DNA of 53,659 bases. It comes from Candidatus Hydrogenedentota bacterium. GTDB lineage: Bacteria > Hydrogenedentota > Hydrogenedentia > Hydrogenedentales > JAGMZX01. Position 1 is the stretch's first letter; each line of letters starts with the position of its first letter. The DNA lies in contig JAKQEQ010000021.1 in the NCBI GenBank assembly GCA_029556545.1, positions 1 through 53,659 of the forward strand, given 5' to 3'. The notes beneath the pieces are model-generated. The model was not told the origin of the DNA. It made no database searches and saw only the letters and a program-made list of their open reading frames with translations. This document shows, piece after piece, positions 50 through 52,723 of the stretch. The translations under genes were made by a program, and so were the position numbers.

Positions 50-285
50 GCCCTGAAAGGGCCGGAGAAGACAGCCCAGGGCAACGCCCTGGGAAGAGGG
101 ATGCCTGCTATAAAGAGAAGCCCTGAAAGGGCGAAACACGACGGGAAGATTCCACGCGGGCAGGGAATAAGGGCGCGCCGGATACAGGCCCCTTTTGCTG
201 TTACGCCCTTGCAGGGCTTCACATTGAGGCGCGCACATTTTCCCAGGGCGTTGCCCTGGGCTACTATGTCATGGGCCTTCGGCCC
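50..285. repeat. Cluster of palindromic repeats
   Basis: The unit GCCCTGAAAGGGC occurs at 50-62 and 120-132, with variants at 205-217 (GCCCTTGCAGGGC) and 273-285 (GGGCCTTCGGCCC). A 23-base segment at 73-95 recurs as its exact reverse complement at 240-262, and each arm is itself a hairpin built on CAGGGC and GCCCTG. An open frame that runs through the region only reads the repeats and has no coding character. I see no gene between 1 and 631. The structure is typical of repetitive extragenic palindromes. Confidence 0.75.
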
Positions 286-530
286 TAAATGCGGGAACTT
301 CAGCGCGCGACGCGGACCTAGGGCAAGACACCCACACATCGAGTTCGCATATGTCCCAGAGTAATTATGCACATCGAAGCGGAGTGCTCGTACTTTTTAG
401 TGCGATTGCCCTGGGCGAGTCGCGGGGCGGGTGCGTTTCGCGTGGCGGCTTTGATAGACTTTCGAGGAATAGCCGTTTCTCGATGCGTGCCCGCCGAAGC
501 CGAGTGGCGCGCGCGGGGGCGGCGTAGGGA

Positions 531-42725: not shown

Positions 42726-43457
42726 TCAGGATGCGCCGAGCGGCGTGCTGTCGAAACGGCGGATGTGCAGCACATCGGTCGTCGCGCGGGGACTCAGCGT
42801 GGCCAAGTACAGCGCGGCCTGCGCCACGTCCTCGGGGGTCATCCAGTCGGCCTTGTCGCGTTCGGGCATGGCCTCGTCGGCGAGGCGCGTCGCGACACCG
42901 CCGGGGCACAGGGCGTGCACGGCGATATCATAGGCACGAAGTTCGAGCGCCAGCGCGAGCGAGAACCCGTTCAGCCCGAATTTCGAGGCACAGTACGCGC
43001 TTTGCTCGGCGATGGGCTTGAGACCCGCAACGCTCGACACGTTGATGATGCGTCCGGAACGGCGGGCAATCATGGACGGCAGCACGGCCTGGGTCACGAG
43101 GAACGGCCCCGTCAGGTTCACGTCCAACGTGTGCCGCCACTCATCGATGGCGATCTCCGTAAAGGGCTTGAAGCAAGCGTAGCCGGCGTTGTTCACGAGA
43201 ATGTCGATATGCCCGAACCGATGCAACACCATGTTCACGGCGTTGTCCACCTGCGACGGGGCCGCCACGTCGCACACGCAGGGAAACGCCTCGCCGCCGA
43301 GGTCGGCGGCCAACTGCGTCGTCTCGTTGAGTTCGTCCAGGGTGCGCGCCACCAAAGCGACGCGGCAGCCCTCGCGGGCGAAGGCCAACGCGATGCCGCG
43401 GCCGATGCCCCGGCCCGCCCCCGTGATAAGCGCCGTCTTGTCTTCGAGCAGTGCCAT
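42726..43457 (-). CDS. Short-chain dehydrogenase/reductase
   Basis: 243 residues, ATG at 43457 with GGAGGA seven bases upstream. Classical SDR: TGAGRGIGRGIAL (cofactor loop), LVNNAGYA, NVSSVAG and the catalytic YCASK (Ser, Tyr, Lys). VARTLDEL after the second strand, with Arg, suggests NADP preference. FabG-like length. It starts 19 bases after the stop of the YihY gene, so the two are likely co-transcribed. Substrate unknown. Confidence 0.91.
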   Translation of the reverse strand: MALLEDKTALITGAGRGIGRGIALAFAREGCRVALVARTLDELNETTQLAADLGGEAFPCVCDVAAPSQVDNAVNMVLHRFGHIDILVNNAGYACFKPFTEIAIDEWRHTLDVNLTGPFLVTQAVLPSMIARRSGRIINVSSVAGLKPIAEQSAYCASKFGLNGFSLALALELRAYDIAVHALCPGGVATRLADEAMPERDKADWMTPEDVAQAALYLATLSPRATTDVLHIRRFDSTPLGAS

Positions 43458-43476: not shown

Positions 43477-45111
43477 TCAGTCGCGCGTCTCGACGCGCGC
43501 CGCAAGTTCCGCGATAGTGGCGTTGAGACAGGCCGCCTTGCCCGCCGCCAGACCTTCGTATACCGAGGCGTAGGGGCCGTCCTGACGCAGCAGCGACGGG
43601 TTCTCACCCGCCTCGCGCAATGCCCGGACCACCTCGCTGGTCCGTGTGGTCTCGGGCGAGCGGGCGGGCTGATACGTCACGGGGTCGGTGGCGCAGCGAA
43701 TCACGAACCGGGCCGCGACCAGACATTCGAGCGTCTCATGGACCAGTCGGCTCGGCACGTTCCAGGCGTCGGCCATCTCCGTGGCCGTGAGGCCGGGCAG
43801 CCCGTCGCGGAATCGCCGCGCAAGTTCAACGACCACGCGAACGGCCAGCGCCTCCTTGTACGCGAAGGAGGCGACATCCGAGAAGCGCTCCATGGCGAAG
43901 GTTTTTTCGTTCTGATACGCGAAGGTGATAAGCGCGCCGAGGAGGAGAATGATCCAGCTTGCGTAGACCCACATCATCAGCATAGGAAACAGGGCGAACC
44001 CGGAGAAGAACGGCGTGTAGCGCGCGAGGCCGATCTGGAATTTCACGTAGGCCCATGAATTCAATACCCAGAGGCCGCCGGCAACCAGCCCGCCCAGCAG
44101 CGCGTAGCGCTTGCGCACCGGCGTATTCGGCACGAGCCAGTTCAACAGACTCATCGTGAGGCAGACGACCGCCAGTTGCACGCCGCGCAGCCCCGTAGCC
44201 AGCGAACCGAGCGCCTCCTTGATCGCCTCGCTCTCGAGCGCGGCGGTCATTGCAAGCACGGCGGCGGCGACAAACGGCAGCAGCAGCGTGATCATCATGT
44301 AGTCGCTGAGGACGCGAAACCAGTGCCGGTTGCGCGCGACGCCCCAGATGGCGTTCACCGAGGTCTCGACGTTGCGCATCAGCCCGAACACGGTAGTCAG
44401 CACAAACACCAGGCCCGAGAGGCCGAGCGTCGGTAAATCGCGCGCGCCCTGCTCCGCCATGGTCACGAGCATCTTCACGGGGTCCACGTATCGGGTGTCG
44501 ACGCCGACGTTCGCCTGGGCGACGCCGAGGAGGACAAAGTTCATGATGCTGCGCTTGAGCGCCTCATTGTCCCGCTCCCGATCCTTCTCGCCGCCGCGCG
44601 CCAATGCGGCCGCCCCGTTCCGGCCGGGCGACTTCACGGCGGCGCGAAGCGGCCCGCGGACGTTCGGGAGAAGACGATCGGTATTAACGCGCGCGAGTTC
44701 GCCGAGGTCCCCTTCCTTTTCCAAGACATACGCGGCGCGCGCGGCGGCGGGAAGCCGCTTCACAACCTCTTCGCCGCGGATCATCATGGCCACTTTGGTC
44801 AGGCGTTCGTCGAGTTGCTCCGACCAACGGCGATAGACGCCCTCGCCCAGGTTGAACGTGGTGATGAAGAAGAACATGAACGTGAGAAACGGAACGATGA
44901 ACAGGAGCGTGGCGAAGGTCAAGGCCGACGCCCTCAGCAGGAGCGTCTCCTCGATCAGGCCGCGCATGATTAGGATCGCGACGCGCACGTGCTTGATGAT
45001 CAGGCCGTGCGGCACCTGCTCTCCCGGCCGCCCGATGCGCCATACGTCATAGGTGACAAAACGGCGGCCCCGCTCGAGCGCGGCGATCATGCCTTGGAAG
45101 CTTTGGGTCAT
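43477..45111 (-). CDS. YihY/BrkB-family membrane protein with winged-helix C-terminus
   Basis: 544 residues, ATG at 45111. The YihY/BrkB core (six membrane segments) is shown by RASALTFATLLFIVPFLTFMF, IWGVARNRHW, LNWLVPNTPVRKRYALLGGLVAG and FSGFALFPMLMMWVYASWII. A long extracytoplasmic insertion (about residues 95-190) separates the first and second segments, larger than usual. After the core, about 120 cytoplasmic residues include a winged-helix-like stretch (LTATEMADAWNVPSRLVHETLECL), as in the longer YihY proteins. Function of the family is unsettled; it was once misnamed RNase BN. Confidence 0.88.
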   Translation of the reverse strand: MTQSFQGMIAALERGRRFVTYDVWRIGRPGEQVPHGLIIKHVRVAILIMRGLIEETLLLRASALTFATLLFIVPFLTFMFFFITTFNLGEGVYRRWSEQLDERLTKVAMMIRGEEVVKRLPAAARAAYVLEKEGDLGELARVNTDRLLPNVRGPLRAAVKSPGRNGAAALARGGEKDRERDNEALKRSIMNFVLLGVAQANVGVDTRYVDPVKMLVTMAEQGARDLPTLGLSGLVFVLTTVFGLMRNVETSVNAIWGVARNRHWFRVLSDYMMITLLLPFVAAAVLAMTAALESEAIKEALGSLATGLRGVQLAVVCLTMSLLNWLVPNTPVRKRYALLGGLVAGGLWVLNSWAYVKFQIGLARYTPFFSGFALFPMLMMWVYASWIILLLGALITFAYQNEKTFAMERFSDVASFAYKEALAVRVVVELARRFRDGLPGLTATEMADAWNVPSRLVHETLECLVAARFVIRCATDPVTYQPARSPETTRTSEVVRALREAGENPSLLRQDGPYASVYEGLAAGKAACLNATIAELAARVETRD

Positions 45112-45261: not shown

Positions 45262-46749
45262 TTATCGGATGGTGACGGGTGTCCCGATTGCGCATAGGCG
45301 GAAGAGCGTCGCGGCGTCGTCGGGATACATGCGGATGCAGCCCCGGCTCGCGTCGCGCCCAATCGAGGCGGCCTCCGTCGTCGGATGTATGCCGTAGCTG
45401 GTCGGTCCCCCGTCATTGCCCAATCCCATCCAGTACGCACCGAGCGGATTGGCCGCGTCCCCGGCCTTGACGGTCCTGCCCGCATTGTACCAGTCGGGAT
45501 CCGTTAGCTTGTTCGCGATATGAAAGTCCCCGGTGGGCGTCGCACCGTGCCGGCCAAGCCCCACGGGAAATCGCGCGGCAAGCGTCCCGTCCCGGTAGAC
45601 GGCCAAGATGTGATCGCGCTTGCTGATAACGATCGAGAATGCCGGGGCGACCGTCGCGGTGGGCACGTTTCCCAAGGCGAACGCGTCACGCAGCGGCGGC
45701 GGCAGCGTGCTCGGTATGGCGCCCGCGCGCAACGCATCCCACAAGGCCGCGGCGCGACCGCGCCACAGCGGGTCGATCTCCGGCGCGACGGCGAGGGCTT
45801 GCTCGATACGCCGCATCGCGTCGCCAATTCGGCCTGCTGCCGCGAGGCTCCAGGCCTTATCGAGTCCCATACTGAAGCGCGCGGCGGGTGAAGGCGCATC
45901 CCGCGGCGGTATGGAGACCTGCGCTGCCAGCGCCGTTGAACCGACTTCGGGGAGAAGGTCGATGGCGGCGAATTCCGGCATCGTCGCGGCCAAGAGCGGC
46001 TGGGTATCGACGATGGTGGACGTGTATACGATGCCCGCTTCGGGCGTTGTAACGGCCCGCGAGACGCCGTTCTCGGCCGGCGCCACCGGAATGGCGGACG
46101 GCGCGGCGTCGGCATGCGCCGACCGGACGTGGTTCGGGAAGCTTGCGGATTCCGGCCAGCGAAAAGAGGTACCGGCCCGGTAGCCGACGAGCCCAAGCAA
46201 TAACAGCAGGCTCAAGAGGAGCAAAGCCAGGGCGCGTTTGCGACGAGCCCTTCCTTGTGGCCGGTGCGGGGCAGGCGGCGCGTCCGCCTGGCGCAGATGC
46301 TCGACCATCGCGATCGGGGAGGGCCCCGCGCCGGCCCGCCGCGGCAGCGCGCGCTCGATTCGTTCGAGCAGAAGACGCGCATCGGAGGGGTCTGTAATTT
46401 CCAGCGTCCCTATATGCTTGGGCGCGGGAGCAATCAGCCGTATCCCGATCAAGTACTCACCATCGTCTACAGCCGTGATGTTGGCGACACGGCCACGTAC
46501 GAGGATGAGAGATTCTTCGCGTTCGCCGCCGGTTCCGCCAATTTCGACCTCGAGCGGTGCGCCCACAGGTTCGCGGGTACGGCACCGTAGGCGAAGTCCG
46601 GTGAGACTGACGTTTTCAACAGTGGCGCGCGTGAGAATTGCGGGTTGATCGATGCGCGCGTACACGGCGGAGCGTTGCGTCAATGCGCGCTCGTGGCGTC
46701 GCCGGTCCGGCGTAATGTCGTTTCTTGCGACCGCAGCCTCGTTGCCCAT
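45262..46749 (-). CDS. PilZ domain-L,D-transpeptidase fusion
   Basis: 495 residues, ATG at 46749. The N-terminal PilZ domain (about 14-120) has both cyclic-di-GMP contacts: Arg17-x3-Arg21 and Asn46-x-Ser48-x2-Gly51 (NVSLTG). A basic stretch and one membrane segment (about 170-190) follow, then a 180-residue linker with a TPR-like helical pair (about 285-355, AWSLAAAGRIGDAMRRIEQAL). The YkuD L,D-transpeptidase domain (about 370-495) carries His455 (YGIHPT) and nucleophile Cys471 (SRGCIRM). The topology puts PilZ in the cytoplasm and the transpeptidase in the periplasm, where the family makes 3-3 peptidoglycan cross-links or attaches proteins. It is divergent from two MshEN-domain genes. I know of no described protein of this layout. 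Confidence 0.9.
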   Translation of the reverse strand: MGNEAAVARNDITPDRRRHERALTQRSAVYARIDQPAILTRATVENVSLTGLRLRCRTREPVGAPLEVEIGGTGGEREESLILVRGRVANITAVDDGEYLIGIRLIAPAPKHIGTLEITDPSDARLLLERIERALPRRAGAGPSPIAMVEHLRQADAPPAPHRPQGRARRKRALALLLLSLLLLLGLVGYRAGTSFRWPESASFPNHVRSAHADAAPSAIPVAPAENGVSRAVTTPEAGIVYTSTIVDTQPLLAATMPEFAAIDLLPEVGSTALAAQVSIPPRDAPSPAARFSMGLDKAWSLAAAGRIGDAMRRIEQALAVAPEIDPLWRGRAAALWDALRAGAIPSTLPPPLRDAFALGNVPTATVAPAFSIVISKRDHILAVYRDGTLAARFPVGLGRHGATPTGDFHIANKLTDPDWYNAGRTVKAGDAANPLGAYWMGLGNDGGPTSYGIHPTTEAASIGRDASRGCIRMYPDDAATLFRLCAIGTPVTIR

Positions 46750-46826
46750 AACATCCGTGCCTTGCCTGGGACCTCCGAAACCAGTATACCATGCGATGCA
46801 CGGACCCTTGCCGCTGATTGCGGCTG

Positions 46827-46855
46827 TTGCGGGGGCGTCGCCGTCTCCCTATAAT
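46827..46855 (+). promoter_or_regulatory. Promoter of the first MshEN gene, -10 box inside a palindrome
   Basis: TTGCGG (46827-46832), 17-base spacer, TATAAT (46850-46855). The -10 box is bracketed by CTCCC and GGGAG (46845-46849 and 46856-46860), a symmetric site that a repressor could use. The start of transcription would be near 46862. Confidence 0.65.
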
Positions 46856-46902
46856 GGGAGTCGTCGGTCCTTGGCGGGTATGAGAACATGTGCGGGAGGC
46901 AT

Positions 46903-48096
46903 ATGGCGCGGGACGCAGAGCACTCCATCGAATCATCGGAATCCGCGGCCAGGAGTTGGAGCGCCTTGGTCAGTGGTGCATACCCCGACATCGAGCGCGC
47001 CCTCGGGAACACCGCCGAAGCTATTCGTCGCCTTGAGCAGTGGGCGCGCCGCCGTCCCAAGCTCGATCCCGAGCGCTTGCGGCAACGCACAAGCGCGGGA
47101 AGCGCCCCGGATGGAGACGCGGAGGCCGCTGCCGCACTGCGAGAGGGATTGGGCGATTTCCAAATCGAGGTGGCAACCCTTGAGGCCCAGGCCAAACGCG
47201 CGCTCGAATCGGGCGCGCACCTGATTCGCGCGCTTAAACCCCTCTGCGGCGAGGAGCCGCCGGCGCAGACCGTGTCTTCCTCGCGGGACGTGCCTGCTTC
47301 CTCGGACGCGCTTGCAGAAGAAAACGCAGCACTGCGCGCGGAGGCGGCCCGGCTGCGCCGGGAGATCATCGAGGCGCAAGCCCGCCCGACGCCCCTGAAA
47401 GCCGCGACGGAACCCAGCCTGCGCGAGCACGACCTGGAGGCGGAAGTCGAGCGGCTGCGCGCGAAACTTGCGGAACTGCATCACGATCTCGCACACGTGC
47501 GCGAAGCGCCTGCGGCGCTCCCGGCGGACGTGCAGGAGGAACTGGCGACGCTGCGGGTCGAAGCGGCGGCGCTGCGGGAGACGAACGAACGGCTGCGCCG
47601 GCCGTTGCCCGGATCGAGCGACGAACGGTTCGACGTGATCGCGAGTCAGGCGTTCGACCCGGAAGGCCGGCGAAAACTGCTCGGACAGATTCTCGTGGAC
47701 GCGGGTGTTATCCGCAACGAACACCTTGAAATCGCGCTGTATGAACAGCACAGTTCATGGCGACGGCACTTGGGCGCGATCCTGGTGGACCTCGGGTTTG
47801 CCAGCGAGGAAGACATTGCTCACGCGCTGGCCGCGCAGCTCGCGCTGCCTTTTATCGACCTGCGCATGGAGCACGTCAGCGAGCAGGCGCTGGCGCTCGT
47901 CAGCCGTCAGTTGGCCATCCACCATACCTGCATTCCCTTGCGGATCAACACCGCGGGGATCACAATTGCCTTTGCGAACCCCCACGACCTCGTCGCGCTC
48001 GATGACTTGCGTCTGGCCACCGGTCGCCCCGTCCAGCCCGTGGTGGCCACCGCCGGCCAAATCAAGTACGCGATTCGCGAGCATTACCTCATCTGA
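46903..48096 (+). CDS. Coiled-coil protein with C-terminal MshEN domain
   Basis: 397 residues from the ATG at 46903 (GGGAGG just upstream, spacer short); the ATG at 46888 adds five residues. The first 240 residues are Ala/Glu/Arg/Leu-rich and predicted coiled coil (for example 138-160 and 175-232). The last 150 residues are an MshEN (GspE/PilB N-terminal) domain with the two 24-residue motifs at 259-282 (LLGQILVDAG...) and 289-312 (HLGAILVDLG...), then LALPFIDL and ITIAFANPHDLVALDDL. MshEN domains bind cyclic di-GMP. The leading Arg of each motif is Leu259 and His289, so binding may be weak or lost. No ATPase domain follows. A 9- to 17-base-precise promoter precedes the gene. Confidence 0.83.
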   Translation: MARDAEHSIESSESAARSWSALVSGAYPDIERALGNTAEAIRRLEQWARRRPKLDPERLRQRTSAGSAPDGDAEAAAALREGLGDFQIEVATLEAQAKRALESGAHLIRALKPLCGEEPPAQTVSSSRDVPASSDALAEENAALRAEAARLRREIIEAQARPTPLKAATEPSLREHDLEAEVERLRAKLAELHHDLAHVREAPAALPADVQEELATLRVEAAALRETNERLRRPLPGSSDERFDVIASQAFDPEGRRKLLGQILVDAGVIRNEHLEIALYEQHSSWRRHLGAILVDLGFASEEDIAHALAAQLALPFIDLRMEHVSEQALALVSRQLAIHHTCIPLRINTAGITIAFANPHDLVALDDLRLATGRPVQPVVATAGQIKYAIREHYLI

Positions 48097-48105
48097 TCCC
48101 ACGCA

Positions 48106-48134
48106 TTGATCGCGCTTTTCACCGCGCCTATAAT
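48106..48134 (+). promoter_or_regulatory. Promoter of the second MshEN gene
   Basis: TTGATC (48106-48111), 17-base spacer, TATAAT (48129-48134), 47 bases before the ATG at 48182. It lies just after the previous stop, so the second gene can be transcribed on its own. Confidence 0.7.
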
Positions 48135-48181
48135 CGCCGCGGGCGCGCTGTCCGCCGCCCGTCGCAAAGGAAAAGCTGCCA

Positions 48182-49144
48182 ATGGGCGCATCGGATCAGG
48201 TTGTATTCGAACAACTGGCCACGGCCATCGACGACTGGACCGTCCAGCTTCAGGCCGCGCATGAGGAACTGGGGGAGACCTTCGCGTCGGCGATCGCGCG
48301 TGCCGGAAGCCGGGCGCAACAGGCGCAGGGCGGCCCGGAACCCCCTTCGGGGGAAATCAACGCGCTCCGCGAAGAACTGGCGGCGCGCGATGCTCGAATC
48401 GTGGCGCTCGGCCATGAAGTGGCGGAACTGCGCGCGAACGAGGCGGCCGCGTGCGCGGAATGCGAGGCCCTGCGTCGCGCCCTCGAACACGCGCGCGAGC
48501 AACTTGCCGCGCACTCCCCTGAGCGGTTCGAGGAACTCGAGCACCTTCTGGCGGAGGAACGCGACCATGCGGGCGTACTCGAGGCGCAATTGAATCAGGC
48601 CCGTGAAGAATGCGAGCGGCTGCGTATGCAAAGCGACGCGCCCGATCCCATTGTCACGGACCGCGCCGCACCGACGGGCGCGTCGCACATCCCTGCGTTC
48701 GATGCGAAAGGCCACAAACGGCGCATGGGCGAAATCCTCGTCGACTTGGGCGTTCTGACGCATGATCAACTCATGGAAATCCTTGACGAACAGATTGCCG
48801 ACCCACAGCGACGCTTCGGCGCGCTCGTGGTCGAGCGCGGGCATACGGACGAGGAACTGGTGGCCCGCATTCTCGCGGCGCAAAGCCGTCTGCCCTTCGT
48901 GCGCCTGAGTGAAATCGACATTGACACGAAGGTTCTCGGCAAGATAACGCCGCAACTGGCGCGCACGCGCCGTTGCGTGCCCATCGCCATCGAGGACGAC
49001 CGGCTGCGCGTCGCCATGGCGAACCCGCTCGACTTGATTGCCGTCGAGGACATCGAGATTACGACCAAGCTTCGCGTCGAGCCCGTCGTCGCCATGCTCG
49101 GCGAAATCGAAGCCGCCCTCGACAGTTACTACGGCGGGCGGTGA
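48182..49144 (+). CDS. Coiled-coil protein with intact MshEN cyclic-di-GMP motifs
   Basis: 320 residues, ATG at 48182 with AAAGGAAAAG upstream. Residues about 55-150 are coiled coil. The C-terminal half is an MshEN domain with both 24-residue motifs complete: 181-204 starting RMGEILVDLG and 211-234 starting RFGALVVERG, each with Arg at position 1, Gly at 3 and 10, Leu at 21 and Gln at 24. RLPFVRL and LRVAMANPLDLIAVEDI follow, as in type II secretion and type IV pilus ATPases, but the ATPase itself is missing. It is a paralogue of the preceding gene and probably a free-standing cyclic-di-GMP receptor. Partner unknown. Confidence 0.86.
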   Translation: MGASDQVVFEQLATAIDDWTVQLQAAHEELGETFASAIARAGSRAQQAQGGPEPPSGEINALREELAARDARIVALGHEVAELRANEAAACAECEALRRALEHAREQLAAHSPERFEELEHLLAEERDHAGVLEAQLNQAREECERLRMQSDAPDPIVTDRAAPTGASHIPAFDAKGHKRRMGEILVDLGVLTHDQLMEILDEQIADPQRRFGALVVERGHTDEELVARILAAQSRLPFVRLSEIDIDTKVLGKITPQLARTRRCVPIAIEDDRLRVAMANPLDLIAVEDIEITTKLRVEPVVAMLGEIEAALDSYYGGR

Positions 49145-49258: not shown

Positions 49259-49858
49259 GTGGAGGGGTTGCCTTGTCTCAAGGGCGCGTTGCACACGCAT
49301 ACGACGTGTTCGGACGGGCGGCTGACGCCACTCGAGGTGTTGCGCGCATACCGCGACCTCGGTTACGACTTCGTCGCGCTCACGGACCATGACTTCCTGG
49401 TGAAGCCGGATGCTTACGCGGCGCTCCCGGACCGGTTCGAAGACATGCTGGTCTTCAAGGGCGTCGAGAAGACCGTGTTCGCTCGTGGCTACGTGCACGT
49501 CAACGTCATCCCCGGCCGCGAGGAAACACTGCACGTGTTCAATCATCCCGCCGAGTACGGATACAGCGTCGCGCAGTTGCTTGAACGCATCGCGCTGGTT
49601 CAGCAGAATATGCCCCTGCACGCCATCGAGGTAACGGCGAAGGGCTTCTATACGCCCGAGTACGACATCGAGTCCCTCGCGCTGCCTAAGGTCGCGTCGG
49701 ACGACAGCCACACGCGCGACATGTGCGGGCGCGCGTGGATCACCGCGCAGGCGGAAAGGGAACATGACGCGGTACTGCGCGCCATCAAGGCGGGACAGGC
49801 CCGCGTCCACTATGGCGCGGTTGCGCGACAACGGTCGTGGGCCCATTTTGGCGAGTAA
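49259..49858 (+). CDS. PHP-domain metal-dependent phosphoesterase-like protein
   Basis: 199 residues. GTG at 49259 is chosen because AGGAGG lies six bases upstream and the PHP domain starts at once; starts near 49184 have no such site. The motifs are KGALHTHTTCSDGRLTP (metal His-x-His, Asp), FVALTDHDF, HVNVIPGREE with HVFNHPAEYG, and PKVASDDSHTRDM near the end. These match stand-alone PHP proteins related to YciV and histidinol phosphatase. Action on a phosphodiester or nucleotide is likely; the substrate is unknown. The thiolase operon begins 40 bases later. Confidence 0.87.
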   Translation: MEGLPCLKGALHTHTTCSDGRLTPLEVLRAYRDLGYDFVALTDHDFLVKPDAYAALPDRFEDMLVFKGVEKTVFARGYVHVNVIPGREETLHVFNHPAEYGYSVAQLLERIALVQQNMPLHAIEVTAKGFYTPEYDIESLALPKVASDDSHTRDMCGRAWITAQAEREHDAVLRAIKAGQARVHYGAVARQRSWAHFGE

Positions 49859-49898
49859 ACTCCGCGGCGAACATGTCGGGGAACGGAGGGCAGGCATC

Positions 49899-51041
49899 GT
49901 GACAAGCCGGGTCGCTATTTGCGCGGTTGCCCAGACGAAATACGAAGCGGACAAATGGGACGTCCGCATGCAGGGCATGGTCTGGGAAGTCGTTAAGCAG
50001 GTGCGGGCGCAGACCGGCCTCGACTTCGGCGATGACGGCATCGAGGCGGCGGTCACGGTATCGGACGACGTTTTCGATGCGCGCACCATATCCGACAGCG
50101 CCGTGACAGACGTAGTGGGCGCGCATTTCCGGGGTGAGGAAAAGGTGGCTTCCGACGGCGCGCAGGGTGTTTACTACGCCGTCGCCACGATCCTGTCCGG
50201 CAAACACGACGTCGTCTTGCTGGCGGGCCACTGCAAAGAGTCCCAGGCCGCCAGCCGCAATATGGTCACGCACCTCGCATTTGACCCCTTCTTCACCCGA
50301 CCCGTCGGCCTCGATTATCTCGCCGCCGCCGCGCTTCAGGCGGACGCCTACATGCGCAAGACCGGTGTCACCGAGGATCAGTTGGCCGACGTGGTCGTAC
50401 GATCGCGACAGTGGGCCGCGAAGAATCCCGTCGCTCGCGACGCAACGCCGCTCACGCGCGATGATGTGCTTGCATCCCCCATGCTCGCCGACCCGATACG
50501 CGAATCGTTCATGTATCCGATCACGGACGGCGCCGTCGCCATGATTCTCGCTTCCGAGGAGCGTGCCCGCGACATTACGGACCGGCCGGTCTGGGTGACA
50601 GGACTCGGCAACTGTTACGACAGCTTCTTTCTGGGCGAACGTGACCTGGCGGGCAATTTCGCGCTCGAACGCGCGGCTGCGCGCGCTTATTGCATGGCCG
50701 GTATCAAGAACCCGGTAACGGCGTTCGACGTCGTCGAGTTGTGCGACCAATGCGCGCACCAGATGCCGCAATGGGCGGAAGGCCTCGGCCTGTGTGCGGC
50801 AGGCGGAGGCGCGGTTTGGCTTGCGGAGGGCGGCCCTGACTGCCATAGCGTGAACCGCTCCGGCGGCATGCTCGCCGGCAACCCGCTCATGCTGGGCGGC
50901 ATGGCGCGTGTCGCCGAGGCGGTCCTTCAGTTGCGGGGCGACGCGGGCGCGCGGCAGGCGCAGGGTGCGAAGCGCGCCCTTGCCCACGGCTGCTGCGGTC
51001 CCGCAGGCCAGTTGCAGGTGGCGGTTGTACTGGAAGCGTAA
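49899..51041 (+). CDS. Thiolase-like protein, probably catalytically inactive subunit
   Basis: 380 residues; GTG at 49899 with GGAGG nine bases upstream. The SCP2/archaeal-type thiolase fold is recognisable from AICAVAQTKYEAD, DGAVAMILASEERARDI, FDVVELCDQCAHQ and the C-terminal NRSGGMLAGNPLMLGG. The expected nucleophilic Cys is not found: at the place of Cys96 in the next protein there is Tyr92 (GVYYAVATILSG). It may be a structural partner of that protein, as in two-subunit thiolases and aldolases. The gene order then continues with two DUF35 genes, so the four products probably form one complex. Confidence 0.85.
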   Translation: MTSRVAICAVAQTKYEADKWDVRMQGMVWEVVKQVRAQTGLDFGDDGIEAAVTVSDDVFDARTISDSAVTDVVGAHFRGEEKVASDGAQGVYYAVATILSGKHDVVLLAGHCKESQAASRNMVTHLAFDPFFTRPVGLDYLAAAALQADAYMRKTGVTEDQLADVVVRSRQWAAKNPVARDATPLTRDDVLASPMLADPIRESFMYPITDGAVAMILASEERARDITDRPVWVTGLGNCYDSFFLGERDLAGNFALERAAARAYCMAGIKNPVTAFDVVELCDQCAHQMPQWAEGLGLCAAGGGAVWLAEGGPDCHSVNRSGGMLAGNPLMLGGMARVAEAVLQLRGDAGARQAQGAKRALAHGCCGPAGQLQVAVVLEA

Positions 51042-51054
51042 GGAGACCTCCTTC

Positions 51055-52251
51055 ATGAAGCGCAAACGACGCAATGTGGCGGTTATCGGAAGCGGCATGT
51101 CCCACTTTTCGAGCCATCGCGAGGAGGTGAACCAGCCCGAGATGATCCACGAGGCCGTGGTCGAGGCGCTCGACGACGCGGGCATGACGCTCGACGAGGT
51201 GGACTGCGTCCTTCACGGCAACATGGAACTTTTCGAAATGGTCCACCAGCCGGACATGTGGCACGCCATCGCCTCGGGTGTATGGGGCAAGTCCGGACTG
51301 CGCCTGACCACCGGCGGCACCACGGGCATTACGTTGGCCTGCGCGGCGGACAATCTGGTGGCTTCCGGCCTGCATGACGTGGTCCTCGCTATCGGTTTTG
51401 AGAAATTGCAGGAGGGCCACACTACCGGCGGCATCACGAATATGGCCGACCCGCTCTGGGGGCGCAGCATCCAAACGGGCGCGTTGACCGGCACCACGGC
51501 GCAGGCCGTCATCGACGAGTTCGGCGAGGAACGCGCCAAGCACGCCGCGATGAAAATGCGCATCATCATGGACGAACACGCCATGCTCAACGAGAAAGCC
51601 CACCGACGCCTGGGCCTTGACCGGCAATTCATCAAGGAGATGGCGGACAACTCGCCGCCGCTCGTCGGCGAATTGCGCATGCTGCACATGTGCTCGCAGA
51701 GTGACGGCGCGTGCGCGGTTGTATTCGCCTCCGAAGAGAAGGCCGAGGCGCTCGGCGCCGCCCCCGCGTGGGTCGTTGACCACGAAACGGTCCACCGTGA
51801 AGAGACGCTTATGTTCAGCCCCGAAAAGACGACCATGCGCGTCGCTGCGGAGCGCATGTTCACGCGCAACGGCATCACCGACCCGCGCCGCGATATCGAC
51901 GTGTTCGAAATGTACGACCCTTCCGCGTGGTGGGGGCTCGATTGGCTCCGTGAATTTCTTCTCCTCGAGGGCGACGAGCACCTCAAGATGGTCGAGAACG
52001 ACGAAATCCGCATTGACGGTGCCTTTCCGCTCAACCCCTCGGGCGGCGTCCAGGCCAGCAATCCAATCGGCGCCACGGCGCTCGTGCGCGTCGCCGAGGC
52101 CGCCATGCAAGTGCGCGGGGTCGCCGGCGGCCACCAAGTGCCGAAACCGGTTCGCCGCGCGCTCGCCTCCGGATTCGGTGGTACACTCTGGACCGTGCTC
52201 ATGTTGCTGTCTCGCGAAAAACCGGTTCTCGGAGGACACTGCGATGCCTGA
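51055..52251 (+). CDS. Thiolase-family protein with catalytic Cys
   Basis: 398 residues, ATG at 51055 with AAGGAG nine bases upstream, 13 bases after the previous gene. RRNVAVIGSGMSHFS opens the fold. Cys96 in GITLACAADNLVASG is the likely nucleophile. DGACAVVFASEEKAEAL and INPSGG-like PLNPSGGVQASNPIGATALV complete the family pattern. Together with the upstream copy and the DUF35 proteins it should carry out a carbon-carbon bond-forming or -breaking step on an acyl-CoA (thiolase or retro-aldolase). The last eight bases overlap the next gene. Confidence 0.88.
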   Translation: MKRKRRNVAVIGSGMSHFSSHREEVNQPEMIHEAVVEALDDAGMTLDEVDCVLHGNMELFEMVHQPDMWHAIASGVWGKSGLRLTTGGTTGITLACAADNLVASGLHDVVLAIGFEKLQEGHTTGGITNMADPLWGRSIQTGALTGTTAQAVIDEFGEERAKHAAMKMRIIMDEHAMLNEKAHRRLGLDRQFIKEMADNSPPLVGELRMLHMCSQSDGACAVVFASEEKAEALGAAPAWVVDHETVHREETLMFSPEKTTMRVAAERMFTRNGITDPRRDIDVFEMYDPSAWWGLDWLREFLLLEGDEHLKMVENDEIRIDGAFPLNPSGGVQASNPIGATALVRVAEAAMQVRGVAGGHQVPKPVRRALASGFGGTLWTVLMLLSREKPVLGGHCDA

Positions 52252-52723
52252 CGACAAGAAAGCGGAACTCATCGTGTCGCGGCAGGTGTTATCCATCCCG
52301 CAGCGCTTCGCCACCGGCCCGATCATGGGTCGATTTCTTGCCGAACTGCTCGACAACCGGCGAATCATGGCCGTGCGCGCGCCCGGCAGTCGCTGCCTGC
52401 TGCCGCCGCGCGAGGTCGATGCCGTCACCATGCAAGAGGCTGTCGAATGGGTCGAGGTCGGGCCGGAAGGCACGATTCGCGACTTCGACGTGGTTTACTA
52501 CGCGAGCCCGGACCCGCTTACCGGCGAAACGCGCGACGTACCGTACATCATTTGCTGGGTCGACCTGGACGGAGCGGGCGAAGGCGCGCCCCTCTGGCAT
52601 CTGCTCGATGCGCCCGATCCGGGCAAGGTGCGCTGTGGCATGCGCGTGCGTGCCGTGTTCAATGACGAGCGGTGCGGCTGTATGGAAGACATCAGACATT
52701 TTGAAATAATCGAGGAGACATAG
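52244..52723 (+). CDS. DUF35-type OB-fold protein with degenerate zinc ribbon
   Basis: 159 residues; ATG at 52244 overlaps the thiolase stop by eight bases, with GGAGGA upstream. DUF35 layout: an N-terminal helix, a rubredoxin-like region, then an OB fold (WVEVGPEGTIRDFDVVYY, GMRVRAVF). In the ribbon only one Cys remains (GSRCLLPPRE) where four are usual, so zinc is probably not bound. DUF35 proteins position acyl-CoA in thiolase, HMG-CoA synthase and steroid aldolase complexes. Confidence 0.84.
   Translation: MPDDKKAELIVSRQVLSIPQRFATGPIMGRFLAELLDNRRIMAVRAPGSRCLLPPREVDAVTMQEAVEWVEVGPEGTIRDFDVVYYASPDPLTGETRDVPYIICWVDLDGAGEGAPLWHLLDAPDPGKVRCGMRVRAVFNDERCGCMEDIRHFEIIEET

Follow-up and report, generated by a model that had tools for sequence, protein, structure and literature searches.

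Recurrent divergent genes for a PilZ-fused L,D-transpeptidase and coiled-coil MshEN proteins in Hydrogenedentota suggest a link between cyclic di-GMP and the cell wall

Most known outputs of cyclic di-GMP (c-di-GMP) signaling concern pili, flagella, exopolysaccharides or transcription. In Candidatus Hydrogenedentota, we found genes placed repeatedly back to back, one encoding an L,D-transpeptidase fused to a PilZ domain and one or two encoding coiled-coil proteins that end in an MshEN domain (CC-MshEN proteins); as read from sequence, this arrangement suggests a direct link from c-di-GMP to cell-wall remodelling. What is new, going by the binding-motif residues, is that a canonical receptor and an arginine-less paralogue are combined in all six tandem pairs of CC-MshEN genes (A-B pairs).

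Results

The window, which is the whole 53,659-nucleotide stretch of DNA analyzed, is contig C112 of a 6.1 Mb Candidatus Hydrogenedentota genome (G000). A PilZ-TM-YkuD gene (P0001; 45262-46749, - strand) is divergent from two + strand genes, CCM_A (P0002; 46888-48096) and CCM_B (P0003; 48182-49144). A first-pass annotation of this DNA had reported these three open reading frames and their domains; the open reading frame list and Pfam matches bore it out, and the domain identities of the three products are virtually certain.

P0001 is a 495-residue PilZ-TM-TPR-like-YkuD protein with a PilZ domain at residues 15-106 (Pfam, E 1.3e-6) and a YkuD domain at residues 372-494 (PF03734, E 1.1e-22, 81.7 bits), both over the Pfam cut-off. 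One hydrophobic helix with positive charges before it starts at about residue 172, and a weak TPR-like region lies between the helix and YkuD. The PilZ motif was found as RRHER (17-21, RxxxR) and then NVSLTG (46-51, D/NxSxxG), and the YkuD catalytic motif as GIH (His) and SRGCIR (the SxGCxR Cys motif). The catalytic domain and SxGCxR signature are common to B. subtilis YkuD and E. coli LdtE, to which P0001 adds the N-terminal PilZ domain and membrane anchor. We examined the motifs and the hydrophobic helix in 26 relatives and also made an alignment of 25. The canonical D/NxSxxG motif was present in 23 of the 26 transpeptidases compared and the catalytic Cys in 25 of them. Conservation of the PilZ motif makes it likely that the PilZ domain of the transpeptidase binds c-di-GMP. 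The PilZ-transpeptidase of G017 (L092:7411-8919, - strand) has SQGYVR in place of the catalytic Cys motif and is either inactive or the product of a sequence error. In two f4 genomes, G044 and G050 (L091:8557-10248 and L096:3278-4867, both + strand), YkuD is kept and the PilZ region lacks D/NxSxxG. The structure model of the PilZ-transpeptidase was of low confidence (mean pLDDT 57) and too poor for a fold search.

A collection scan was performed for relatives of P0001. All named genomes with full-length relatives were Candidatus Hydrogenedentota, which places the genome of the window in this phylum, and matches outside this phylum covered the YkuD end of the protein only. The scan patterns came from an 8-row subset of the 25-row transpeptidase alignment, the full alignment having no stretch conserved enough; they were derived from Hydrogenedentota sequences, and distant PilZ-YkuD fusions could therefore be missed. 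None of 42 YkuD open reading frames of other phyla had a PilZ-like motif by regular expression, which is weak evidence of absence. Neither a PilZ-fused L,D-transpeptidase nor a stand-alone coiled-coil MshEN protein was described in the literature searched, coverage of which was incomplete.

Both CCM proteins consist of an N-terminal helical element, a coiled coil and a C-terminal MshEN domain. CCM_A (402 residues; start at 46888 or 46903, both possible) has a degenerate MshEN domain by the motif table and falls in clade A, and CCM_B (320 residues) has its N-terminal element at residues 1-49 and an MshEN domain of the RMG...RFG type. Pfam (PF05157, cut-off 23.1 bits) placed the domain at residues 319-400 of P0002 (E 8.7e-19, 67.7 bits) and 236-319 of P0003 (E 2.4e-19, 69.6 bits). 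This model spans the C-terminal half only, and the c-di-GMP motif half lies just N-terminal to it (P0002 264-317, P0003 181-234). The nearest known sequences were NfrB, PilB and the NCBIfam domain NF053729 (cut-off 38 bits), for which P0002 scored over the cut-off at 55.6 bits and P0003 just under it at 36.0. Neither protein matched an ATPase family in Pfam, and MshEN ends both. The first-pass annotation had placed MshEN normally at the N-terminus of secretion and pilus ATPases. This is right for the ATPases, but the C-terminal position, although unusual, has a precedent in E. coli NfrB (PMC8669469).

The AlphaFold2 model of CCM_B had a mean pLDDT of 88, about 96 over the MshEN domain, and an overall pTM of 0.52, a low value such as would result from loose placement of the helical part. 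A check of the MshEN fold had been proposed with the first-pass annotation. It was made on CCM_B, the C-terminal domain of which was confidently modelled, had the MshEN fold and resembled 5htl (MshE with c-di-GMP) with a Foldseek TM-score on the target of up to 0.85 (chain 5htl_B); domains of T. thermophilus PilF and the X. citri PilB-PilZ complexes (7lko/7lkm) were also among the best matches. A test of coiled-coil periodicity gave mixed results, being significant for P0002 1-60 and some other parts but not for P0003 55-152, and the label "coiled coil" is therefore based on the prediction of long helices and on weak matches in Pfam, including those of P0003 to coiled-coil families.

A conserved N-terminal segment of about 50 residues (consensus RLExAIxxWN...) opens most CC-MshEN proteins. 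A profile built from 18 of these proteins had matches in 40 of 68 genomes, most of them located at CC-MshEN loci and some occurring twice in one long protein, and found none at its threshold in families f6 and f10. In the genome of the window it detected P0003 and a paralogue on contig C156; P0002 matched a broader version of the profile weakly.

Compared with the reference MshEN motifs (two 24-residue motifs with Arg9/Arg38, Gly11/Gly40, Leu25/29/54/58 and Gln32/Gln61; PMC5013675), CCM_B has R, M, G, G, L, L, Q and R, F, G, G, V, L, Q, with conservative changes only. CCM_A, in contrast, has L at Arg9 and H at Arg38, with the other positions kept. In most other CC-MshEN proteins, too, both half-sites are intact at the Arg, Gly, Leu and Gln positions, and the equivalents of Gly11, Gly40 and Gln61 are invariant across the 30 CC-MshEN proteins of the motif table. 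The six A-B tandem pairs were in G000, G001, G008, G014, G034 and G037. The B member was R/R at Arg9/Arg38 in all six, whereas the A members were L/H, M/H, P/H, P/A, P/P and V/P. In the five pairs with an adjacent transpeptidase gene, A was always proximal to it; in G001, A was at a contig end. Where a single CC-MshEN gene was present at the transpeptidase locus, it was R/R in G015 and G021 and M/R in G020; that of G007 was R/H and had two more changes. In the tree, a 99/97 branch separated the A rows from the B rows, which thus form separate clades. A profile of the clade-A N-terminal segment matched eight genomes, seven of them training rows; in the eighth, G005, the A protein is P/H, and no transpeptidase match was found in this 63%-complete assembly.

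By tree position and motif residues, CCM_A is an ancient, separate paralogue that has kept the fold residues and lost both stacking arginines. The first-pass annotation had described two receptors with coiled coils. The description suits CCM_B, the motif of which is intact, better than CCM_A, in which both guanine-stacking arginines are missing. The two domains therefore differ in kind, and the pair is probably one receptor (B) and one degenerate paralogue (A). From its motif residues, CCM_B can be expected with good confidence to bind c-di-GMP. In a degenerate MshEN domain of T. thermophilus PilF, proposed to be a "landing pad", the motif-II arginine was required for restored binding and reverting it abolished binding (PMC12002112). 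Because a non-arginine residue in motif II has this effect, weak or no binding of c-di-GMP by CCM_A is likely, but unproven.

The transpeptidase was present in 32 of 68 Hydrogenedentota genomes (E <= 1e-25), and P0003 had a match in 60 of 68 (E <= 1e-20), some of these matches being ATPases. Conservation of the neighborhood, another check proposed with the first-pass annotation, was found in part: a CC-MshEN gene lay within 5 kb of the transpeptidase gene in 11 of the 32 genomes, from six families (f1, f4, f7, f8, f9 and f11), and was divergent and upstream in every case. About 0.13 adjacencies would be expected by chance, a rough figure that takes no account of shared ancestry and is based on a hand-assembled list of CC-MshEN matches and one fixed genome size. 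The genomic association of transpeptidase and CC-MshEN genes is, with very high probability, non-random. The remaining 21 genomes had no adjacent CC-MshEN gene, and several of these absences are uninformative because a contig ends close by. In the same-genus genome G001, the A-B pair is on another contig than the transpeptidase block; in most f3 and f4 genomes, the transpeptidase is kept but no CC-MshEN gene adjoins it; and some genomes without the transpeptidase do have CC-MshEN genes, for example G009 with a B-clade protein and G005 with its CCM_A. The association is thus loose and not universal. In a search for recurrent neighbors of CC-MshEN genes away from the transpeptidase, the clearest signal was the block of transpeptidase and BrkB/YihY genes, at loci that were partly chosen around this block.

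Downstream of the transpeptidase gene are a gene for a BrkB/YihY-family membrane protein (43477-45111, - strand; Pfam Virul_fac_BrkB, E 6e-37), which the first-pass annotation did not name, and, as the third gene of the same-strand run, one for an SDR oxidoreductase (42726-43457, - strand; Pfam adh_short). BrkB/YihY was a more frequent neighbor of the transpeptidase than CC-MshEN (16 of 27 clustered transpeptidase loci vs about 10), and the SDR family was present in 10 of the 27. The gene after the SDR gene is often a RecD2 helicase in relatives. At four loci, a gene for a glycosyltransferase-2 and TPR protein (L093:13124-14437, - strand, and relatives) is convergent to CCM_B. At 49764-52723 of the window (+ strand), a PHP-domain gene is followed by a run of three genes, two of them thiolase-like and one for a ChsH2-like OB-fold protein.

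The divergent promoter region (46750-46902) was read by eye. An extended -10-like element, TGGTATACT (TATACT), faces the transpeptidase at about 46784-46792 on the - strand, and a TATAAT at about 46850 faces CCM_A; similar AGTATACCATG and CTATAAT elements were read in several relatives. A consensus scan made no call of these -10-like elements. Between CCM_A and CCM_B there is a sigma-70-like promoter, TTGATC-17-TATAAT (48106-48134, + strand), which agrees with the consensus at 10 of 12 positions; shuffles of the region would be expected to give about 0.6 sites of this quality. No c-di-GMP riboswitch was found near the three genes at Rfam gathering thresholds. The only Rfam match in the window was an Acido-Lenti-1 RNA at 242-286 (+ strand; 38.4 bits vs a gathering threshold of 37).

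The genome as a whole has 11 GGDEF, 9 PilZ and 15 MshEN loci. The MshEN loci comprise six traffic ATPases, two MshEN-HDOD proteins, five proteins with C-terminal MshEN after a coiled coil (including one with an additional Bac_DnaA domain), one with a DnaA-like ATPase region and one with a cyclic-nucleotide-binding-like region, these labels being read from sequence. L077 encodes DnaA, coiled coil and C-terminal MshEN, and further MshEN fusions are at L009, L014, L010 and L012. On the contig of the window, the only MshEN domains are those of P0002 and P0003, and no GGDEF domain, pilus ATPase or other cyclase was found. The claim that the locus has no ATPase or cyclase thus applies to the whole contig but not to the genome, with its 11 GGDEF loci and six MshEN ATPases.

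Discussion

The neighborhood is best read as a c-di-GMP-responsive envelope module: PilZ would gate or position the transpeptidase, CCM_B would sense c-di-GMP and CCM_A would dock. We hold this reading tentatively and place it slightly short of probable. The PilZ domain would be cytoplasmic and YkuD periplasmic, on either side of the hydrophobic helix, and c-di-GMP binding to PilZ would change the activity, clustering or location of the transpeptidase, which is predicted to make 3-3 cross-links or attach ligands to peptidoglycan. CCM_B, which is predicted to have the MshEN fold and retains the residues typical of c-di-GMP-binding MshEN domains, would bind c-di-GMP. CCM_A may be the docking partner; its most likely target would be the PilZ domain, as in X. 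citri, where a degenerate MshEN-like domain of PilB binds PilZ (PMC8389850; 7lko/7lkm), although a contact of CCM_A with the PilZ domain in particular is an unlikely guess by analogy. The coiled coils would unite A and B, and occupancy of B would control recruitment of the membrane-bound transpeptidase. We infer physical coupling of the three proteins; a functional effect of the CC-MshEN proteins on the transpeptidase is a nearly even prospect. Cyclases encoded in the genome count in favor of the module, and the promoter-like site of CCM_B's own counts against it. A more specific version, in which receptor CCM_B and degenerate CCM_A form a two-tier device, joined by coiled coils, that recruits or gates the PilZ-transpeptidase through an MshEN-PilZ contact, with one messenger controlling peptidoglycan cross-linking by way of two receptor folds, is improbable in full detail.

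These results allow more than one scenario. The proteins could be independent c-di-GMP effectors that have only a divergent promoter region and the second messenger in common, the transpeptidase responding to its own PilZ domain only and the CC-MshEN proteins acting elsewhere (e.g., on pili, polarity or other envelope machinery). That most Hydrogenedentota genomes have CC-MshEN genes, in diverse surroundings and also without the transpeptidase, is in keeping with this scenario, as are the separate A-B pair of G001 and the divergent sigma-70-like elements between the genes. However, adjacency in six families with constant orientation argues against it, and so does the use in f4 (G062 and G063) of transpeptidase-adjacent CC-MshEN genes from outside the main B clade, although the independence of this adjacency is without tree resolution. 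We consider independent effectors a serious, if somewhat doubtful, possibility. Alternatively, the core unit could be the transpeptidase and BrkB/YihY, with SDR and often RecD2, acting on the envelope, and CC-MshEN a lineage-specific addition. BrkB/YihY is the more frequent neighbor, as counted above, and the BrkB/SDR order is retained in f3 and f4 genomes that have no adjacent CC-MshEN gene. However, BrkB/YihY was not found beside the transpeptidase in G002, G004, G014 and G029, and the literature search gave no paper linking this family to L,D-transpeptidation, which leaves such a core rather improbable.

Loss of c-di-GMP binding could also have left the MshEN domains here as vestigial protein-binding modules. 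CCM_A lacks both arginines, and XpsE, X. citri PilB and T. thermophilus PilF GSPII-A are non-binding degenerate examples (PMC5013675, PMC8389850, PMC12002112). However, CCM_B and most CC-MshEN proteins retain the residues of both half-sites, and the genome has 11 GGDEF loci; loss throughout is very improbable. The small response module of three genes put forward in the first-pass annotation, with the CC-MshEN proteins as putative adaptors, is partly supported as a whole. Neither of the two outcomes named there as refuting it was obtained, and the adjacency is non-random, but the association is loose and the transpeptidase often has no CC-MshEN gene next to it.

The envelope module has partial counterparts in known systems. 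NfrB of E. coli, a glycosyltransferase and the best NCBIfam match of the P0002 domain, likewise has a C-terminal MshEN, which there controls an envelope function (PMC8669469); its effector domain is in the same polypeptide, whereas the CCM proteins have only the coiled coil and N-terminal helical element. The MshE/PilB/PilF ATPases share the MshEN fold and the two 24-residue motifs with the CCM proteins (PMC5013675), which differ in having no ATPase domain, a C-terminal MshEN and, in CCM_A, a degenerate motif. The X. citri PilB-PilZ-FimX system (PMC8389850) also joins a degenerate MshEN-like domain to a PilZ partner, as in the pairing of CCM_A with the transpeptidase, where the contact is putative. 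In X. citri, PilZ is a stand-alone adaptor of the pilus ATPase; here, the PilZ domain with its canonical c-di-GMP motif forms one polypeptide with the transpeptidase.

The conserved combination of a canonical MshEN domain and a paralogue without the arginines is a simple, testable case of division of labor between receptor and pseudo-receptor. Should the proposed module prove right, c-di-GMP would act directly on peptidoglycan cross-linking, and the pairing of MshEN with PilZ known from the X. citri pilus would have a counterpart in an enzyme of the cell wall.
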